Below, in pieces: positions 1-21,756 of a DNA stretch of 23,180 bases; positions within the stretch are counted from its first letter, which is position 1; the number at the start of each line of letters is the position of its first letter. This DNA is from Akkermansia sp. (GTDB lineage Bacteria > Verrucomicrobiota > Verrucomicrobiia > Verrucomicrobiales > Akkermansiaceae), in the NCBI GenBank assembly GCA_017379255.1, contig JAFNWZ010000090.1, positions 1 through 23,180 of the forward strand. Direction: 5' to 3'. A model generated the notes under the pieces. The model was not told the origin of the DNA. It did not search any database and saw only the letters and a program-made list of their open reading frames with translations. A program made the position numbers and the translations under genes.

Positions 1-2258
1 CCCGCGCGATGATTGATGCCCTGGTGGCGCAGGAAGATAAGAATTTCTGGGTGCACAACGGTTTTGACCCGGTCGGTATTCTCCGTGCGGCAAAAGAAGC
101 CGCTGCAGCTGGTGGGCAGGCGAATCAGGGTGCATCCACCATTACGCAGCAACTGGCTCGAAATGCCTATGACCTGGAGCAGCGCACGATGGCTCGCGGC
201 GGCAGCCGCTATGAACGTAAGGTGGTGGAAATCTTCCTGGCCATGCGCATTGAGGAGAAGTACGAGAAACAGCAGATTCTCGAATTTTACATCAACCGCA
301 TTTATTTCGGCCGCGGGTATTATGGCATCCGCGCAGCTTCGCTCGGTTATTTTGGTAAGGAACCCGCAGACCTGACGGTGCGGGAGGCTGCCAGTATCGC
401 GGCTCTGATTAAAAATCCGGAAAATTACAACCCCGTGCGCAACCCTGAGCTGAACTGGCGCTGGCGCAACGACGTTATCGACCGCATGGAGCGAGCCGGT
501 ATGCTGACGGCAGGCGAAGCCGCCCGCCAGAAAGAAACCCCGCTGGGGCTGAATCCCAAACCGCTCAAGCGCAACACCTCTTTCCTGCATGCCATGGTGC
601 AGCAGCATGCCATTGATATTTTCCAGAATCCCGAGCGCGGTGAGGAAATTGTCAAGAGCCGGGGAATCAAGATATACACCACGATTGACAAGAAGATGCA
701 GGAGGCTGCAGAGCAGGCCCTGCGCGCGCAGTTGGAAAAAGTGGAGTCCCGGGAAGATTATACGCACGTGCGGTTCAGTGAAACCAGTGACCCCCGCTGC
801 GCCCAGCATCGTTATGTGGATGGTGCCGTCATGGCTGTGGATAACAACACGGGCGGGGTGCTGGCCTATGTGGGTGGCCGCAGCTTTGACCGCGATAACT
901 TCGATATCATTGAGAGCGGGCGGCGCTCAGTAGGCACAGCCATGCTACCGTTCCTGTATATGTGTGCCTTTGAGAACGGCTATTCACCGTGTTCCCGCTT
1001 GCTGGATGATGCGCTGGATAACCGCCTGGCCGGTATTGGCGGCTCTGAAGGTATACTGGGCGAATGGGGCATGGAGGTCGAGAAAGGACGCTATCTGGAT
1101 TCCATAACCCTGCGCCAGAGCCTCGAATGGTCCAAGATTGCCGCTTCTGCCCGCCTGGGTATTGCCCTGGGTTCTCACCCGACCAAAGGCGCGCGTTGCT
1201 TCCAGAACACACTCTCACAGGTTGGTATCACCCCGCCGCCCAGAAATCCGCACAGCACGGAATTGAAACCCCAGTATTACCCCCGCGTGTATCTGGGAAC
1301 AGAGCCGGTGTCGCTCAAGGAGGTGACAATGGCGTACACCGTGTTCCCGAATGGAGGCAAGCGCCCGATTGCTCCTTATGTCGTGAGCAAGATTACGGAT
1401 AGTAATGGCAAGATTCTCTGGGAGAATCCGCTGGCTGTAACTCACCGCATGGTGCGCAGCACCACGCCGTGCACGGCCTACCGCCTGCACAGCATCATGC
1501 GCGAATCCATGGAAAAAGGCTCGGCGCAGCGCGTGCGCCCGCTTCTGCCGGAGTCTTTCGGCGGTGCGGTCAAGACGGGAACCAACTATGATTTTTCTGA
1601 CAATGCCCTGTTCGGCTACACCAGCAGCTTCACCTGCGGCATCTGGATGGGGTATCTCAACGACCACCAGCCCATATATCCCCAGGCTTTTGGCTCAGAC
1701 ACCTGCGGCCCTGTGTATGCGGCCATTCTGGAATCTGCCAAGGGGCGTTATGAGGATACTCCCATTCCGGTTCCCCCGGATACAGAAGAGGTGGAAATCT
1801 GCCTGACCTCCGGCCAGATTGCCACAAATTTCTGCTTTGAGACGGTGACAAAGGACGGCAAGCCCGGCTATGTCCGTCCGACGTATCGCGAATATATTCC
1901 CAAGGGGGATGTGTCGATGGGGCAGTGCTCCATTCATGGAGATGGCAGTCCGTCTCTGCATGATTTCATGGAGGCGCATTCCGGGCACATGAATTCATCC
2001 CGCGTGCTGCAGATTGTGCCCGTGTTGCCGCGCAGCGCCGCGCTCATTGGAGAGGACCCCTACGACTGTGACCTGACACTTTCGCCCCGCTACCAAGATG
2101 CGGCAGATATAGCTGATACATCCAGCTCTGCGGAGGAGGTTGCGTCCCCCGCCGATGACAGCCCGGAGGAAGTGGAAAGCCCCGGTGTTGATACGGATAT
2201 GCAGCTGAATGCCCCTGCGCCCATGCGCCATCTGCCGCTCGTTCCGCTTCAAATCTGA
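1..2258 (+). CDS. Class A penicillin-binding protein (PBP1A-like), 5' end missing, transpeptidase motifs degraded
   Basis: This is the 3' part of a bifunctional murein synthase; the reading frame is open at the left edge, so the cytoplasmic tail, membrane anchor and first part of the glycosyltransferase (GT51) domain lie outside. Counting from the ATG at 9, GT51 motifs are clear: the catalytic Glu motif EDKNFW (8-13), GASTITQQLARN (41-52), RKVVE (70-74) and NRIYFGRGYYGI (96-107). The transpeptidase domain follows, but its motifs have changed. The place of SxxK, in the context RxxGSxxKP, reads T310-A-M-L313 before P314. The place of SxN reads S375-K-I377. Only K522-T-G524 survives. The C-terminal 60 or so residues are acidic, Ser/Pro-rich and probably disordered. 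The glycosyltransferase is likely active and the transpeptidase likely not. The next gene follows after 20 bases on the same strand, suggesting an operon. The family assignment is sure; the loss of transpeptidation is inferred from the missing nucleophile. Confidence 0.9.
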   Translation, partial: RAMIDALVAQEDKNFWVHNGFDPVGILRAAKEAAAAGGQANQGASTITQQLARNAYDLEQRTMARGGSRYERKVVEIFLAMRIEEKYEKQQILEFYINRIYFGRGYYGIRAASLGYFGKEPADLTVREAASIAALIKNPENYNPVRNPELNWRWRNDVIDRMERAGMLTAGEAARQKETPLGLNPKPLKRNTSFLHAMVQQHAIDIFQNPERGEEIVKSRGIKIYTTIDKKMQEAAEQALRAQLEKVESREDYTHVRFSETSDPRCAQHRYVDGAVMAVDNNTGGVLAYVGGRSFDRDNFDIIESGRRSVGTAMLPFLYMCAFENGYSPCSRLLDDALDNRLAGIGGSEGILGEWGMEVEKGRYLDSITLRQSLEWSKIAASARLGIALGSHPTKGARCFQNTLSQVGITPPPRNPHSTELKPQYYPRVYLGTEPVSLKEVTMAYTVFPNGGKRPIAPYVVSKITDSNGKILWENPLAVTHRMVRSTTPCTAYRLHSIMRESMEKGSAQRVRPLLPESFGGAVKTGTNYDFSDNALFGYTSSFTCGIWMGYLNDHQPIYPQAFGSDTCGPVYAAILESAKGRYEDTPIPVPPDTEEVEICLTSGQIATNFCFETVTKDGKPGYVRPTYREYIPKGDVSMGQCSIHGDGSPSLHDFMEAHSGHMNSSRVLQIVPVLPRSAALIGEDPYDCDLTLSPRYQDAADIADTSSSAEEVASPADDSPEEVESPGVDTDMQLNAPAPMRHLPLVPLQI

Positions 2259-2278
2259 TTTTCTTCCCGCTTTTCTGC

Positions 2279-3688
2279 ATGCAAATGGATTCTCTGACAC
2301 AAACGCTCGCTGCCACCCAGGAAAAGGCCTTTGAAATCAATATGGACAAAGGCGTGTACGGCGCCTTTGCTGAAATTGGTGCCGGGCAGGAGACCGCAAA
2401 CTGGTTTTTCCGTTCATCCGGCGCAGCCGGTACCGTGGCCAAGACTATTTCTGCTTATGATATGACCGTGAGCGATACGCTCTATGGCCAGGCTCGCCGC
2501 TATGTGTCGGAGGAGCGGCTCAAGCAGATGATGGATTACGAGTATTCCCAGCTTATCAACAGGTTAGGTGAGAAAAGGGGCGAGAATACCTGCTTCTTTT
2601 CATTCTGCAACACGGTAAAGGCCAAGGGATATCGCGATAACGGCCCGTGGTCTGCGTGGATTGGCGTGCGTTTTCAGCTCAAGCCCGGCCTGCCTCCCAG
2701 TGATTTTGTGATGCATGTGCGCCTGCTGGTGCCGGATCACGATGTCCAGATGCGAATTCTGGGGGTTCTGGGCGTAAACCTGCTGTATGCTTTGTTCTAC
2801 AAGCGCGACCGCATGGAGGAATTTGTGCGGAGCGTGGGTGATAATGTAGACCGCGAGTTTTACGAAATTGATTTCATGCGGTTCTCCGGGCACGGGTTCG
2901 GCATGTTCGATAACCGCATCCTGGCGCTGGAGCTGGTGCGCTCTGGATTGACGGAAGCAACGCTTCTCTGCCCGGATGGCACAGTGGCGCAGCCCGCAGA
3001 TTTCCTGTATAAGCGCCCGATTGTGCTGATGCGCGGCAGCTTCCGCCCACTTTGTGGTATTCATCTGGAAATGATGGATAGCGTGCGCAACAAGTTCCTG
3101 GAAAGCCTTCCGGCAGAGCAGCAGGGGCGTGTGGTGGATATCTGTGAAATCTCCCTCTCTAACCTTCTGCGCGGTGAGCAGGTGGATTTGCTGGAGTTCC
3201 TGGACCGCGTGGAAGCACTGGCGGCCGAGGGTAAAACGGTGATGGTGACGAATTTTGGCCGTTTCCACCGTCTTTCCCGCTTGCTGAGCCAATATACCAG
3301 CGAACCTGTGGCCATTGCCTTGTCCATCGGCCTGCTCAACGAAATCTTCAAGGATAAGTGGGCAGATACGCCCGGTGGTATTCTGGCCACCATGGGGCAG
3401 ATTTTCGTGAACAAGACCAAGTTCTACGTGACACCGTGGATTAACCGCACCACCGGTGAGTTTGTGACGGCAGGCACTTACAAAGCGCCTGAGAAATACC
3501 ACTACCTGTACCGCCACCTGCGCGAGACCGGCTGTATCGTGGAGGTGCCGTACTTCAACCAGAAGCTTTTGTTCCAGACTCCGCGGGATATTATACGCAT
3601 GATTAAGACCGGCGATGAAAAGTGGCGTGAATACGTGCCTGCATCTGCAGAGCGTATGGTGGAGCATATCATGGAGGAGGAGAAATGA
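2279..3688 (+). CDS. Conserved uncharacterised protein, translationally coupled to sufS
   Basis: This 469-residue soluble protein has no signal peptide or membrane segment. The N-terminal block (residues 16-70: MDKGVYGAFAEIGAGQE, then AKTISAYDMTVSD) matches, from memory, a widespread conserved family found in several phyla. Automatic pipelines often give that family misleading names such as TonB-dependent receptor or nicotinate-nucleotide adenylyltransferase; nothing in the sequence resembles a beta-barrel or a HIGH-type nucleotidyltransferase. Other conserved-looking blocks are ILGVLGVNLLYALFY near 160-174 and VLMRGSFRPLCGIHLEM near 248-264. I do not know its function. Its stop overlaps the sufS start (ATGA at 3685-3688), so the two proteins are probably made together, suggesting a role near Fe-S or sulfur metabolism. 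ATG 2285 (M3) is an alternative start; neither has a clear ribosome binding site. Confidence 0.85.
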   Translation: MQMDSLTQTLAATQEKAFEINMDKGVYGAFAEIGAGQETANWFFRSSGAAGTVAKTISAYDMTVSDTLYGQARRYVSEERLKQMMDYEYSQLINRLGEKRGENTCFFSFCNTVKAKGYRDNGPWSAWIGVRFQLKPGLPPSDFVMHVRLLVPDHDVQMRILGVLGVNLLYALFYKRDRMEEFVRSVGDNVDREFYEIDFMRFSGHGFGMFDNRILALELVRSGLTEATLLCPDGTVAQPADFLYKRPIVLMRGSFRPLCGIHLEMMDSVRNKFLESLPAEQQGRVVDICEISLSNLLRGEQVDLLEFLDRVEALAAEGKTVMVTNFGRFHRLSRLLSQYTSEPVAIALSIGLLNEIFKDKWADTPGGILATMGQIFVNKTKFYVTPWINRTTGEFVTAGTYKAPEKYHYLYRHLRETGCIVEVPYFNQKLLFQTPRDIIRMIKTGDEKWREYVPASAERMVEHIMEEEK

Positions 3689-18682: not shown

Positions 18683-18919
18683 TACACCTGGAGAGGGGCT
18701 GTTTCAGATTTGCTGATGCCAGTATGCATCATAGCACAATAGCATGTACAATGTACGAGGTACAAAGGACAATTTTAAAGTATGCTGCGCCCAAGGGGCG
18801 CAGGGAATTTTAACCATTTGTACATTGTAATTTGTCCATTGTACATTCCGATAAATAGCAATATATCCGCGTGCCCTCAATGTCTGCAAATCGGAAACAT
18901 TCTCCCCTGGCGCTGTGTA
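18683..18919. repeat. 237-bp imperfect palindrome with heptamer arms and GC hairpin core (element A)
   Basis: The centre is a perfect 8-bp hairpin, CTGCGCCC (18785-18792) with GGGCGCAG (18796-18803). On each side stand four tandem seven-base words of the form TGTACAA: 18745-18772 read on the plus strand and 18818-18845 read on the minus strand. Outside them, TGTTTC plus GATTTGC (18700-18713) recurs inverted at 18886-18899; AGGGG and TACAC are likewise mirrored at 18904-18908 and 18915-18919. The right end is the base next to the stop codon of the membrane protein gene. It is noncoding and looks like a nonautonomous palindromic element. Confidence 0.75.
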
Positions 18920-19309
18920 TCAGAACGCGTTGCCAAAGCTCGCGCAGAGCAGGCACCAGGCCAATATTTGCCCCGCCAGCGCGTATGCAACCACGGCCAG
19001 TGCTCCCGCCAGCCAGGTGCGCGGCCAGTTCTGCATCTGGAACATGCGTGATACGGCCATGGTGCTGGCCAGAATCCCGACCAGCTGGAAAATACCGGCC
19101 ATGGCCAGGCCTGTGCCGAGTTGTGCGGCGGCAAAACCCCCGAGCATGGAAAGCACGGCGGCTAGCACCATTTCCACCAGCGCACAGGCCATGGAGTTTT
19201 TCCAGCGGTGCAGGGCATCTGCCACATAAAATGCCAGCGCCAGCAGCAGCCAGGTCAGCAGACAATACAGCAGAACATACCAGAGCTCATTATGGCACAG
19301 GGGAATCAT
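18920..19309 (-). CDS. Four-helix membrane protein of unknown function
   Basis: This 129-residue hydrophobic protein has about four membrane helices (roughly 9-30, 42-65, 67-85 and 98-122), with a short polar loop DALHRWKNS between the first two. It has several Cys residues but no motif that I recognise. It lies 55 bases after the secreted protein gene 19365-19790 on the same strand and may share its transcript. Downstream its stop codon directly abuts the palindromic element. Confidence 0.7.
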   Translation of the reverse strand: MIPLCHNELWYVLLYCLLTWLLLALAFYVADALHRWKNSMACALVEMVLAAVLSMLGGFAAAQLGTGLAMAGIFQLVGILASTMAVSRMFQMQNWPRTWLAGALAVVAYALAGQILAWCLLCASFGNAF

Positions 19310-19883: not shown

Positions 19884-20810
19884 GTGAATTCAACCGCGGC
19901 AGAGCTCGGCCCTCTTGTGTTCCGCTTCCTGGAATACCTGGAAGCGGAGAGGAATGCCTCACCCCGCACGGTGGAGGCGTACCACCGTGCGCTGCAGCTG
20001 TTCCGCCGCTGGGCGGGTGCTGATTTTGAGGCGTGGGAGCGCTGCGGGGCAGATGTGTTCCGCTCCTGGCTGTATGAAGCGCTCAACGAACAACTCAAGC
20101 CTTCTACCATACGACTGCGTTTTGCCGCCCTGCGTTCGTTTTATGAATACCTGATGCGCCGCGAGGGGCTGCAGGCCAGTCCCCTGGCCGAGGTGAGCCT
20201 GCCCCGCGCCTCACAGAGCCTTCCGGTGCACCTTTCCCTGCACCAGATGGAGGAGCTCCTGGCGCTGCCGCTGCGGATTCCTCCCGATAAGAAGAGCCCC
20301 GCCTGGCTGCCGCACAGGGATGTGGCGATTCTGGAACTCTTTTACTCATGCGGCATGCGTTTGAGCGAACTGGTGGCACTGGATGCCGATTCTCTGCGCC
20401 CCGGGGAGAACTGCATCCGGGTGCTGGGCAAAGGCCGCAAGGTGCGGCTGGTGCCCGTGGGCGATTATGCACGCGAGGCCGTGGAACGCTACCGCGAGAT
20501 GGCCGGGGTGCAGGGCCGCGAGCCGCTTTTCATCAGCCGCCTGGGCAAGCGCATGAGCTGCCGCAGCGTGCAGCTCATGCTGGATAAATACCTGCGTGTT
20601 TCTGACTTGCCCTTCCACATTTCTCCGCACAAACTGCGGCATACCTTTGCCACGCACCTCCTCGATGCCGGGGCAGATTTGCGCGCGGTGCAGGAGTTGC
20701 TGGGGCACAGCTCACTCGCCACCACGCAGATATATACGCATGTGACCCGGACCCGCATGCAACAGGTATACCGCCAGGCTCATCCCCGCGCCGGGTGGAA
20801 TGAGGAATAA
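19884..20810 (+). CDS. xerC: Tyrosine recombinase XerC
   Basis: XerC resolves chromosome dimers at dif together with XerD. From the GTG at 19884 the protein has 308 residues, the usual length. The frame is open to 19743, but the promoter and homology support the inner GTG (VNSTAAELGPLVFRFLEYLEAERNAS). The N-terminal SAM-like domain spans about 10-95. The catalytic set is complete: R159 (SCGMRLSEL), K183 (LGKGRKVRLVP), H249 and R252 (SPHKLRHTFATHLL), H275 (LLGHSS) and nucleophile Y284 (TTQIYTH). The ending AHPRAGW resembles XerC rather than XerD. A housekeeping role is more likely than an integrase role because there is no mobile element context. The stop codon directly abuts element B. Confidence 0.88.
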   Translation: MNSTAAELGPLVFRFLEYLEAERNASPRTVEAYHRALQLFRRWAGADFEAWERCGADVFRSWLYEALNEQLKPSTIRLRFAALRSFYEYLMRREGLQASPLAEVSLPRASQSLPVHLSLHQMEELLALPLRIPPDKKSPAWLPHRDVAILELFYSCGMRLSELVALDADSLRPGENCIRVLGKGRKVRLVPVGDYAREAVERYREMAGVQGREPLFISRLGKRMSCRSVQLMLDKYLRVSDLPFHISPHKLRHTFATHLLDAGADLRAVQELLGHSSLATTQIYTHVTRTRMQQVYRQAHPRAGWNEE

Positions 20811-20885
20811 GTGATTAGTGATTAGTGAATGGGGCGGAGCTGCGAAATTTTGTTCATTAATCACTAATCACTAATTCTTAATCAC
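20811..20885. repeat. 75-bp palindrome with GTGATTA heptamer arms (element B)
   Basis: The left arm holds GTGATTA twice plus GTGAATG (20811-20831). The right arm holds the complement TAATCAC at 20858-20864, 20865-20871 and 20879-20885, with one variant word between. The core is GC-rich at first (GGGGCGGAGCTGCG, 20831-20844) and then AAATTTTG. The element begins at the base after the xerC stop, and its right arm supplies the last codons and stop of the convergent TPR-like gene. The design is that of element A, with a different seven-base word. Confidence 0.75.
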
Positions 20886-21756
20886 TGGTTCTGATGCCCG
20901 TGGTCGGGAACCGCAGGTCATTGCGGGCAAAGCGGCGCAGCTGCTTCATGGCCCGTTCCCGGGAACCGAACAGCTCTTCCAGTGAAAGCTTTTCCTCCTC
21001 CGGAACCTGCAGTTTATGCTGCAGCACTACCAGCAGGCAGCGCAGCGAGGGAGAGCGGTGCCGCTCTTCCCGGTACAGCTCGCGCCCCAGCTTCCAGGCT
21101 TCTTCTTCTCTGCCGCGGATGCGGCACAGATTATAAAACTCCCAGCGGCGGTACATGGGCGAGGCTCCCAGCGCCACCGCCCGGCGGTAATCTTCCACCG
21201 CCCGGCTGAAACGAGGGCGGCGGGCCAGGTCCTCATCAAACGCGCCCATCTGCAGCCAGAGCAGGGCACTCTGCGGGTTATTGGCAATCCCTTCCTGCAG
21301 GAACCGCTCTGCGGCATCCAGATACTCCTTGTTCTGCAAGGCCCGCTCGTGCTCGCCGCCGGTCTCCCGGCTGTTCACCCAGGCCACGGCATTGGTGCCC
21401 ATATCCCGTGCGGCGCGGATCCAGTAATTCACCCGCTGCGGGCACAGCGTAGTAATCTGCTCCCAGCGGCGGCGGGCACGCGGCCAGTCCTGCTCAATCC
21501 ACGCATTGGTGGCATCGATACACAGCATCTCGGCCGCGAAAGTGCGCAACCCGCCCAGCGCAAACAAGGCCAGCTTCTGAGAGAGGGCATCCGTCTGCCC
21601 ATAATCAGGGGCAGGCAGGAGCAGGCGGGCGGCCTCCTCCTGCTGCTGCACACGCTTTTCCAGCGGTTGCAGCGCCAACCCCGCTGCCACAAGTAGCCCC
21701 AGCGCCCCGCACATGCAGAGCCCCCGGCGCACAGCACTGGACGGATTCAAGCTCAT
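20878..21756 (-). CDS. Membrane-anchored TPR-like protein of unknown function
   Basis: This 292-residue protein has one N-terminal membrane segment (about 11-29, GLCMCGALGLLVAAGLAL). A helical domain follows with TPR-like pairs, for example WIEQDWPRARRRWEQITTLCPQ, then AERFLQEGIANNPQSALLWLQMGAF and AVEDYRRAVALGASPMYRRWEFYNLCRIRGREEEAWKLG. No specific family is recognised. Its ATG overlaps the panE stop by four bases (ATGA), so it is co-translated with panE. The last residues, from LRRFARND to the stop, look like translated repeat DNA: the last two codons and the TAA lie inside element B. The original C-terminus may have been shorter or different. Confidence 0.75.
   Translation of the reverse strand: MSLNPSSAVRRGLCMCGALGLLVAAGLALQPLEKRVQQQEEAARLLLPAPDYGQTDALSQKLALFALGGLRTFAAEMLCIDATNAWIEQDWPRARRRWEQITTLCPQRVNYWIRAARDMGTNAVAWVNSRETGGEHERALQNKEYLDAAERFLQEGIANNPQSALLWLQMGAFDEDLARRPRFSRAVEDYRRAVALGASPMYRRWEFYNLCRIRGREEEAWKLGRELYREERHRSPSLRCLLVVLQHKLQVPEEEKLSLEELFGSRERAMKQLRRFARNDLRFPTTGIRTSD

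Follow-up and report, generated by a model that had tools for sequence, protein, structure and literature searches.

Tandem repeats with a unit of seven bases are reported to be over-represented in bacteria, with no agreed cause, in work cited in PMC4692102. In Xanthomonas the 7-bp unit GGGAATC forms arrays that are mostly intergenic and mostly composed of four units, and 70 and 75 inverted pairs of such arrays were counted in two genomes; the word is G-rich and quadruplex-forming, and neither a transposon shell nor a replacement of the word appears in the account of these arrays given in PMC4692102. TAACTGA arrays, also mostly intergenic, are patchily distributed among Beggiatoaceae, cyanobacteria and Bacteroidetes; in the main genome treated in PMC4679880 they comprise two to six units, and elsewhere up to 43. 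They differ from the arrays considered here in that, in this main genome, 169 direct-repeat sets lie mostly just upstream of start codons and a single indirect repeat is listed (PMC4679880). Tandem repeats framed by IS-type terminal repeats are represented by BrickBuilt and by MITE464/PgRS of Porphyromonas gingivalis, of which BrickBuilt is intergenic and reaches 19 copies in ATCC 33277; however, their units measure 23 and 41 nt, their ends are of IS5 type, and no mirrored pair of arrays around a hairpin enters into their description in PMC4596501.

The pieces of the arrangement reported below are known, in BrickBuilt MITEs and in Xanthomonas arrays, and for their combination we found no precedent. 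A literature search on repeats and MITEs of Akkermansia and Verrucomicrobia, heptamer arrays and nested palindromes, conducted mostly at title and abstract level and with sparse coverage of subscription titles, returned neither heptamer-armed MITE palindromes nor word replacement on one scaffold. REP/REPIN sequences and their RAYT transposases offer another likeness as multicopy extragenic palindromes, although we know of no IS terminal repeats, target duplications or heptamer arms in them, and the elements of the present genus have almost no linked Y1 gene. A close parallel is found in ISL3-type MITEs, which resemble the element studied here in the terminal repeat of an ISL3-type IS of the same genome, the lack of genes, dispersed ends and, presumably, a duplication of about 8 bp, whereas the interior is here a heptamer-armed palindrome common to elements with other terminal repeats.

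The palindrome, its insertion site and its ends

The window, that is the whole stretch of 23,180 nucleotides of Akkermansia sp. DNA analysed here, contains between 18695 and 18907, in the space separating two genes, an imperfect palindrome of 213 bp that runs from GGGG to CCCC and carries four period-7 units per arm around the hairpin CTGCGCCC/GGGCGCAG (Table 1). From outside to inside, the order is terminal repeat, spacer, AT-rich adaptor, four heptamers, A/T stretch and GC hairpin, the adaptor being clear on the right and largely absent on the left. An alignment of the element with its reverse complement scores 58, as compared with a mean of -2.1 (sd 7.8, maximum 30) for 500 shuffles and a maximum of 28 for 450 other 213-bp segments of the window. 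The lag-7 identity amounts to 15/21 in the left arm, equalled in none of 20,000 mononucleotide shuffles, and to 14/21 in the right arm, equalled in 8 of 20,000; in both arms, all other lags between 3 and 13 fall well short of these scores. Over the whole 23 kb, four stretches reach at least 15/21 at lag 7, namely both arms of the element (18740, 18818) and those of a second palindrome (20794, 20847), and other lags from 4 to 12 give 0-3 stretches each at the same threshold. The four mirrored heptamers per arm around a GC hairpin, described in the initial annotation, are upheld by these shuffle tests and by the self-alignment. Within the 237-bp palindrome proposed there, the unit proper is the 213-bp element: the outer TACAC...GTGTA blocks belong to the ancestral flank, since AGTACACC is present at sites without the element, and the right edge lies 12 bases short of the stop codon (TCA, 18920-18922, minus strand) at which the palindrome had been said to end. 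RNA folds of the 237 bp gave z values of -4.5 and -4.8, one per strand.

Table 1. Features of the palindromic element and of its immediate flanks (window coordinates).
Feature	Position	Strand	Comparison or basis
Presumed target-duplication remnant, left flank, TGGAGA	18689..18694	.	G020 without element: TGGCGTGG
Left terminal repeat GGGGCTGTTTCAGATTTGCTGATGCC	18695..18720	+	25/26 identical to left end of IS G000:C61:1247
Left heptamer array GTACAAT GTACGAG GTACAAA GGACAAT	18746..18773	+	lag-7 test
Central hairpin CTGCGCCC-AAG-GGGCGCAG	18785..18803	.	
Right heptamer array, outside to inside, GTACAAT GGACAAA TTACAAT GTACAAA	18817..18844	-	lag-7 test, inverted repeat
AT-rich adaptor CGATAAATAGCAATATATC	18849..18867	.	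counterpart of CGATAAATTGGAATTTGTCG-type adaptors; by-eye comparison of C22, C225, G020:C83 and G101 elements
Right terminal repeat, minus strand, GGGGAGAATGTTTCCGATTTGCAGA	18883..18907	-	
Presumed 8-bp target duplication, right copy, TGGCGCTG	18908..18915	.	G020 without element: TGGCGTGG

The second palindrome (20797-20892) is built on an AGTGATT-type word, has a predicted fold of -36.7 kcal/mol and is located where a tyrosine-recombinase-like reading frame meets a convergent one.

The left flank was searched for in 76 genomes of the genus and matched in 67, the sequence beyond it being examined for part of them. The orthologous site lacks the element in three aligned congeners, G020, G026 and G043, the closest of which is G020 with 90% identity over 679 bp, and inspection by eye gave the same result for G005; in most other relatives examined a different sequence follows the flank, which makes them uninformative on the site. 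The element, present here and absent in the aligned relatives, is thus an insertion. The empty site of G020 reads ...GGCAGTACACC-TGGCGTGG-CGTATCA, with the flanks joined as ACACC-TGGCGTGG-CGTATCA, and the window reads GGCAGTACACC-TGGAGA, then the element, then TGGCGCTG-TGTATCA. When TGGAGAGG and TGGCGCTG are taken as the left and right copies of a target that reads TGGCGTGG in G020, they match each other at 5 of 8 positions, a poor duplication, and this only if two G were lost from the G run. Given such a loss, TGGAGA before GGGG and TGGCGCTG after CCCC fit a decayed 8-bp duplication, in which the last two G of the left copy would have merged into the G run. We propose that the element inserted 12 bp past the stop codon of the gene after the host lineage had split from G020, duplicating about 8 bp, and that this duplication would since have decayed. 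Elements of the ISL3 family generally produce target duplications of 8 bp. A duplication of this length has also been reported with an ISL3 element at one end (PMC11702846).

The host genome (G000) carries a complete IS at C61:1247-2583, with an ORF of 409 aa matching Pfam PF01610 (DDE_Tnp_ISL3, E 1.4e-46) and a perfect 8-bp target duplication, TGGTGTTT. The left ends of this IS and of the element are identical at 25/26 bp; the right terminal repeat of the element, with the minus-strand end GGGGAGAATGTTTCCGATTTGC, has diverged and exceeds the left one by 3 bp, and 213 bp leave no room for a transposase. As it has a terminal repeat in common with a complete ISL3-type IS of the same genome, the palindrome is very probably an ISL3-type MITE bordered by the outer repeats of the resident IS, and the C61 transposase or a close relative presumably moved it.

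Both ends and core recur in the host genome. The motif TGTTTCAGATTTGC has 14 exact occurrences, the window copy included, and 40 matches when up to two mismatches are allowed, against 4 for the reversed pattern. BLAST of the element returned 13 matches including itself, nine of them confined to the terminal repeat region, and copies of the core are found in C225 (98%), C170 (94%) and C22 (76%, right half only). Both terminal repeats together were not seen on a second copy among those found in this genome: on C22 just the right end is present, C225 runs into a contig end and C170 bears no ISL3 repeat; the G020:C83 element has the left end only. Six other elements with this terminal repeat were followed inwards, five without such a heptamer array in the inner sequence examined and the sixth, C37, with two GTACAA-type units. 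The further copies of the core and of the ends, the empty sites seen when orthologous intergenic regions are compared, and the repeat shared with an IS together show the nonautonomous repeat family that had been suggested initially; the sequence is neither single-copy in its genome nor conserved at this locus in all relatives.

Heptamer cassettes and their shells in the genus

Three GTACAA-type units in succession, searched as a pattern in the 76 genus genomes, are present in 34 of them, with 110 matches in G101 and 120 in G018, the reversed-pattern control giving 0 or 1 per genome. PF01610 matches at E 0.001 are lacking in G018, G101, G002, G003 and G001, five of the six genomes with the most heptamers, and number two in the sixth, G103; across the 76 genomes, heptamer and PF01610 counts show no correlation (Spearman -0.14, p 0.24). 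An ISL3 transposase as the driver of the heptamers was considered and rejected, PF01610 being rarer among genomes with at least 8 heptamer hits (5/12 vs 48/64; Fisher p 0.037, relatedness uncorrected).

One centre sequence occurs 48 times in G101, and in the 43 distinct copies examined at least three outer shells were distinguished by eye around the same adaptor and arms. Between G000 arms and a G101 element, identity amounts to 82-84% in alignments of 44-50 bp (E 8e-7 and 3e-6). Shells a and b are called transposon-like on the basis of their repeated inverted ends, and pairs of shell-a ends in G101 enclose interiors both with and without the cassette. Flanking duplications of 4-5 bp accompany 8 of 15 shell-a pairs when the boundaries may move by one base, the control 20 bp further out giving 2 hits; a ninth pair, L163, has one only with both boundaries shifted by one base. 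Shell b provided no pairs for this count. A search for the transposases of both shells found no inverted end pair enclosing a reading frame at 60 loci (30 per shell, up to 1.5 kb on either side), and for the G101 element L177 no syntenic empty site was found, its flanks being matched separately in relatives. The occurrence of the cassette within shells with other ends, and in genomes without a detected ISL3 transposase, shows that it is separate from the ISL3 shell, and within the genus it combines with differing transposon-like shells. The seven-base period noted at the outset is real, recurs across the genus and can be separated from the MITE shell.

Insertions into heptamer arrays occur as well: at pattern-picked loci, 8 of 47 distinct shell-a ends adjoin a period-7 stretch, compared with 0-1 for five other lags. 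The shell-a elements at L201, L362, L368, L369 and L376, and by eye the one at L093, have 4-5 bp flanking duplications and flanks that resemble heptamer words (TATT, GATT, AATA, AATT, AAATT).

Period, mirrored pairing and word change

Long stretches were scanned in four genomes: the G000 sample (208 kb) combined the window with contigs surfaced by earlier searches, those of G101 (400 kb) and G018 (396 kb) came from contigs known to hold elements, and that of G052 (400 kb) was evenly spaced. At a threshold of at least 16/21, lag 7 gave 8 stretches in G000, 28 in G101, 64 in G018 and 1 in G052, and lag 14, a multiple of 7, gave 6, 17, 45 and 1. Lags 4, 5, 8, 10, 11 and 13 gave 0-2 each; for lags 6, 9 and 12 the counts went up to 19, such as coding sequence would be expected to produce at these lags. 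Lag 7 stands above all those lags in the element-bearing contigs of G101 and G018; in G000 it is not in excess at 16/21 (8, against 9 for lag 6 and 7 for lag 12), and at 18/21 it gives 2 stretches vs 0 for lag 6.

Similar lag-7 stretches that are neighbours within 250 bp are inverted in one case in G000, two in G101, 14 in G018 and none in G052, which makes 17 inverted and 0 direct pairs over the four genomes. Under a looser threshold, inverted pairs in G018 numbered 15 and used five words (GTACAAW 6, GTACTAK 3, GTTGGAR 3, TTATAAT type 2 and AAATC type 1). When three GTACTAK and four GTACAAW elements are aligned, adaptor and centre are common to all and the units differ at the same position in both arms. 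Among the 43 G101 copies, the right slot holds an unbroken GTCC/GTAA word in 23 and a truncated or interrupted one in 4, GTCAATT in 8 and an interrupted form of it in 5, TTCGTAA in one and another sequence in 2; the left arm carries the usual array in 34 copies and is short in 4 others, and in the remaining 5 it was not found. Four units make up the array in 27/32 cases in G018 and in 69/86 in G101, at loci picked by a four-unit or centre pattern.

These observations lead us to suggest, tentatively and with more doubt than confidence, a repeat class defined by architecture rather than by sequence, in which a hairpin is surrounded by two arrays in mirror orientation, each with about four 7-bp units, and in which one word can give way to another in both arms simultaneously, with adaptor and centre unchanged. 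If this were true, it would imply that copying or recombination of an unrecognised kind, advancing by 7 bases at a time, acts on both arms of the palindrome together; that some unusual replication or recombination process lies behind the heptamer arms, as initially suggested, is possible. In the scheme we favour, with far less certainty than the MITE reading, replication slippage would have enlarged a hairpin-forming cassette by 7 bp at a time, one word would have been kept in both arms by template switching between them or by an exchange of half-elements, and the mirroring itself would come from hairpin-templated copying or from the pairing of halves. Transposon shells would then have dispersed the cassette, with recombination at adaptors and centres. 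We regard the slippage origin of the mirrored arms as a possibility on which we would not yet rely. A slippage step tied to the DNA segment held by the polymerase is a suggestion of authors cited in PMC4692102. In G101, left and right arms show the same mutual difference across copies, and this fixed difference argues against ongoing arm-to-arm correction there. The genus offers one scaffold in many copies, with varied words and shells and with empty sites, and such copies and empty sites make the origin of the 7-base step, of the preference for four units and of the mirrored pairing testable by comparison and by passage experiments.

Two further kinds of arrangement were observed. Long arrays include L183 (G002:C69), where the contig is 3,081 bases long and GTACAA-type matches extend from 1925 to 3077, and L184 (G002:C105:32500-51000), with TTGTAGA/TTGTACT-type matches at several places from 33.9 to 50.1 kb. 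In similar elements, a palindromic piece TTCCGTCTTCGCC..GGCTACGCCGAGAC lies inside the loop of the GC hairpin and generates concentric nested palindromes (L489 and L502 vs L496, and L491; also L167, L171 and L174), placed in the left hairpin in some elements and in the right one in another.

Alternative readings and arrays outside the genus

The heptamer palindrome might itself be the functional unit, a bidirectional terminator or an RNA structure at gene ends, with the MITE shells as mere vehicles; we consider this rather unlikely. Some G018 centres contain perfect hairpins between A and T runs (AAAAACGGTCTGACGCAAGCGTCAGACCGTTTTT), a few G018 arrays appear by eye, genes not being called, to follow a stop codon directly, and the second window palindrome is found where two converging reading frames meet. 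However, the A/T-run hairpin is absent from the G101 and G000 centres examined, the window element contains no terminator-like site (no GC stem plus T run inside) and is missing from relatives, and Rfam, searched at its gathering threshold, gave 0 matches in the window. The absence from relatives and the Rfam result led us to reject a regulatory RNA. For some members, roles as binding sites or terminators are possible; for the window copy they are unsupported.

That the heptamers are subterminal repeats, bound by a transposase or accessory protein required for moving the cassette, is improbable. The mirrored four-unit arrays do lie inside the ends, and the predominance of four units at the pattern-chosen loci of G018 and G101 would suit such a role, but the full ISL3 element has no such arrays in roughly 100 bases at each end, the word varies among elements of the same scaffold and between halves of homologous elements, and G018, the heptamer-richest genome, matches neither PF01610 nor PF01797.

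Movement of a REP/REPIN-like element by a Y1 (RAYT-type) transposase is highly improbable, even though the elements are palindromic and multicopy, Y1_Tnp matches occur in 50/76 genus genomes, and Y1 and heptamer counts are weakly correlated (Spearman 0.38, p 0.0006, relatedness uncorrected). IS-type terminal repeats and a presumed target duplication are at odds with REP/REPIN, G018 has no Y1 match, and a GTACAA palindrome is present in only 1 of 20 Y1 neighbourhoods (G035), with lag-7 stretches of other words in three more; these 20, from about 100 matches, were scanned with L528-L531 left out and with the G035 one picked for its adjoining element. At L532 (G035:C12) the Y1 match lies about 160 bp from the heptamer palindrome.

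A chance or compositional artefact, or simple-sequence slippage without an element, has a negligible probability: many-word heptamer arrays are found in many bacteria, but the shuffle tests and the inverted-only neighbour pairs stand against it, and the sites without the element refute it for the window copy.

The preferred reading is that of an ISL3-type MITE enclosing a separable heptamer cassette. GTACAA arrays were also sought beyond the genus: among the 117 stretches listed, 18 have an inverted partner within 250 bp, compared with 6 in the reversed-word control, and 10 of the 80 for which titles were listed are from Akkermansia sp. These counts are a weak hint of inverted partners outside the genus, and we make no claim that the architecture is common there. 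At two loci outside the genus, L214 and L251, the word switches in the 7-base register, for example from TTGTACC to TAGTTCC in a Thalassotalea record.
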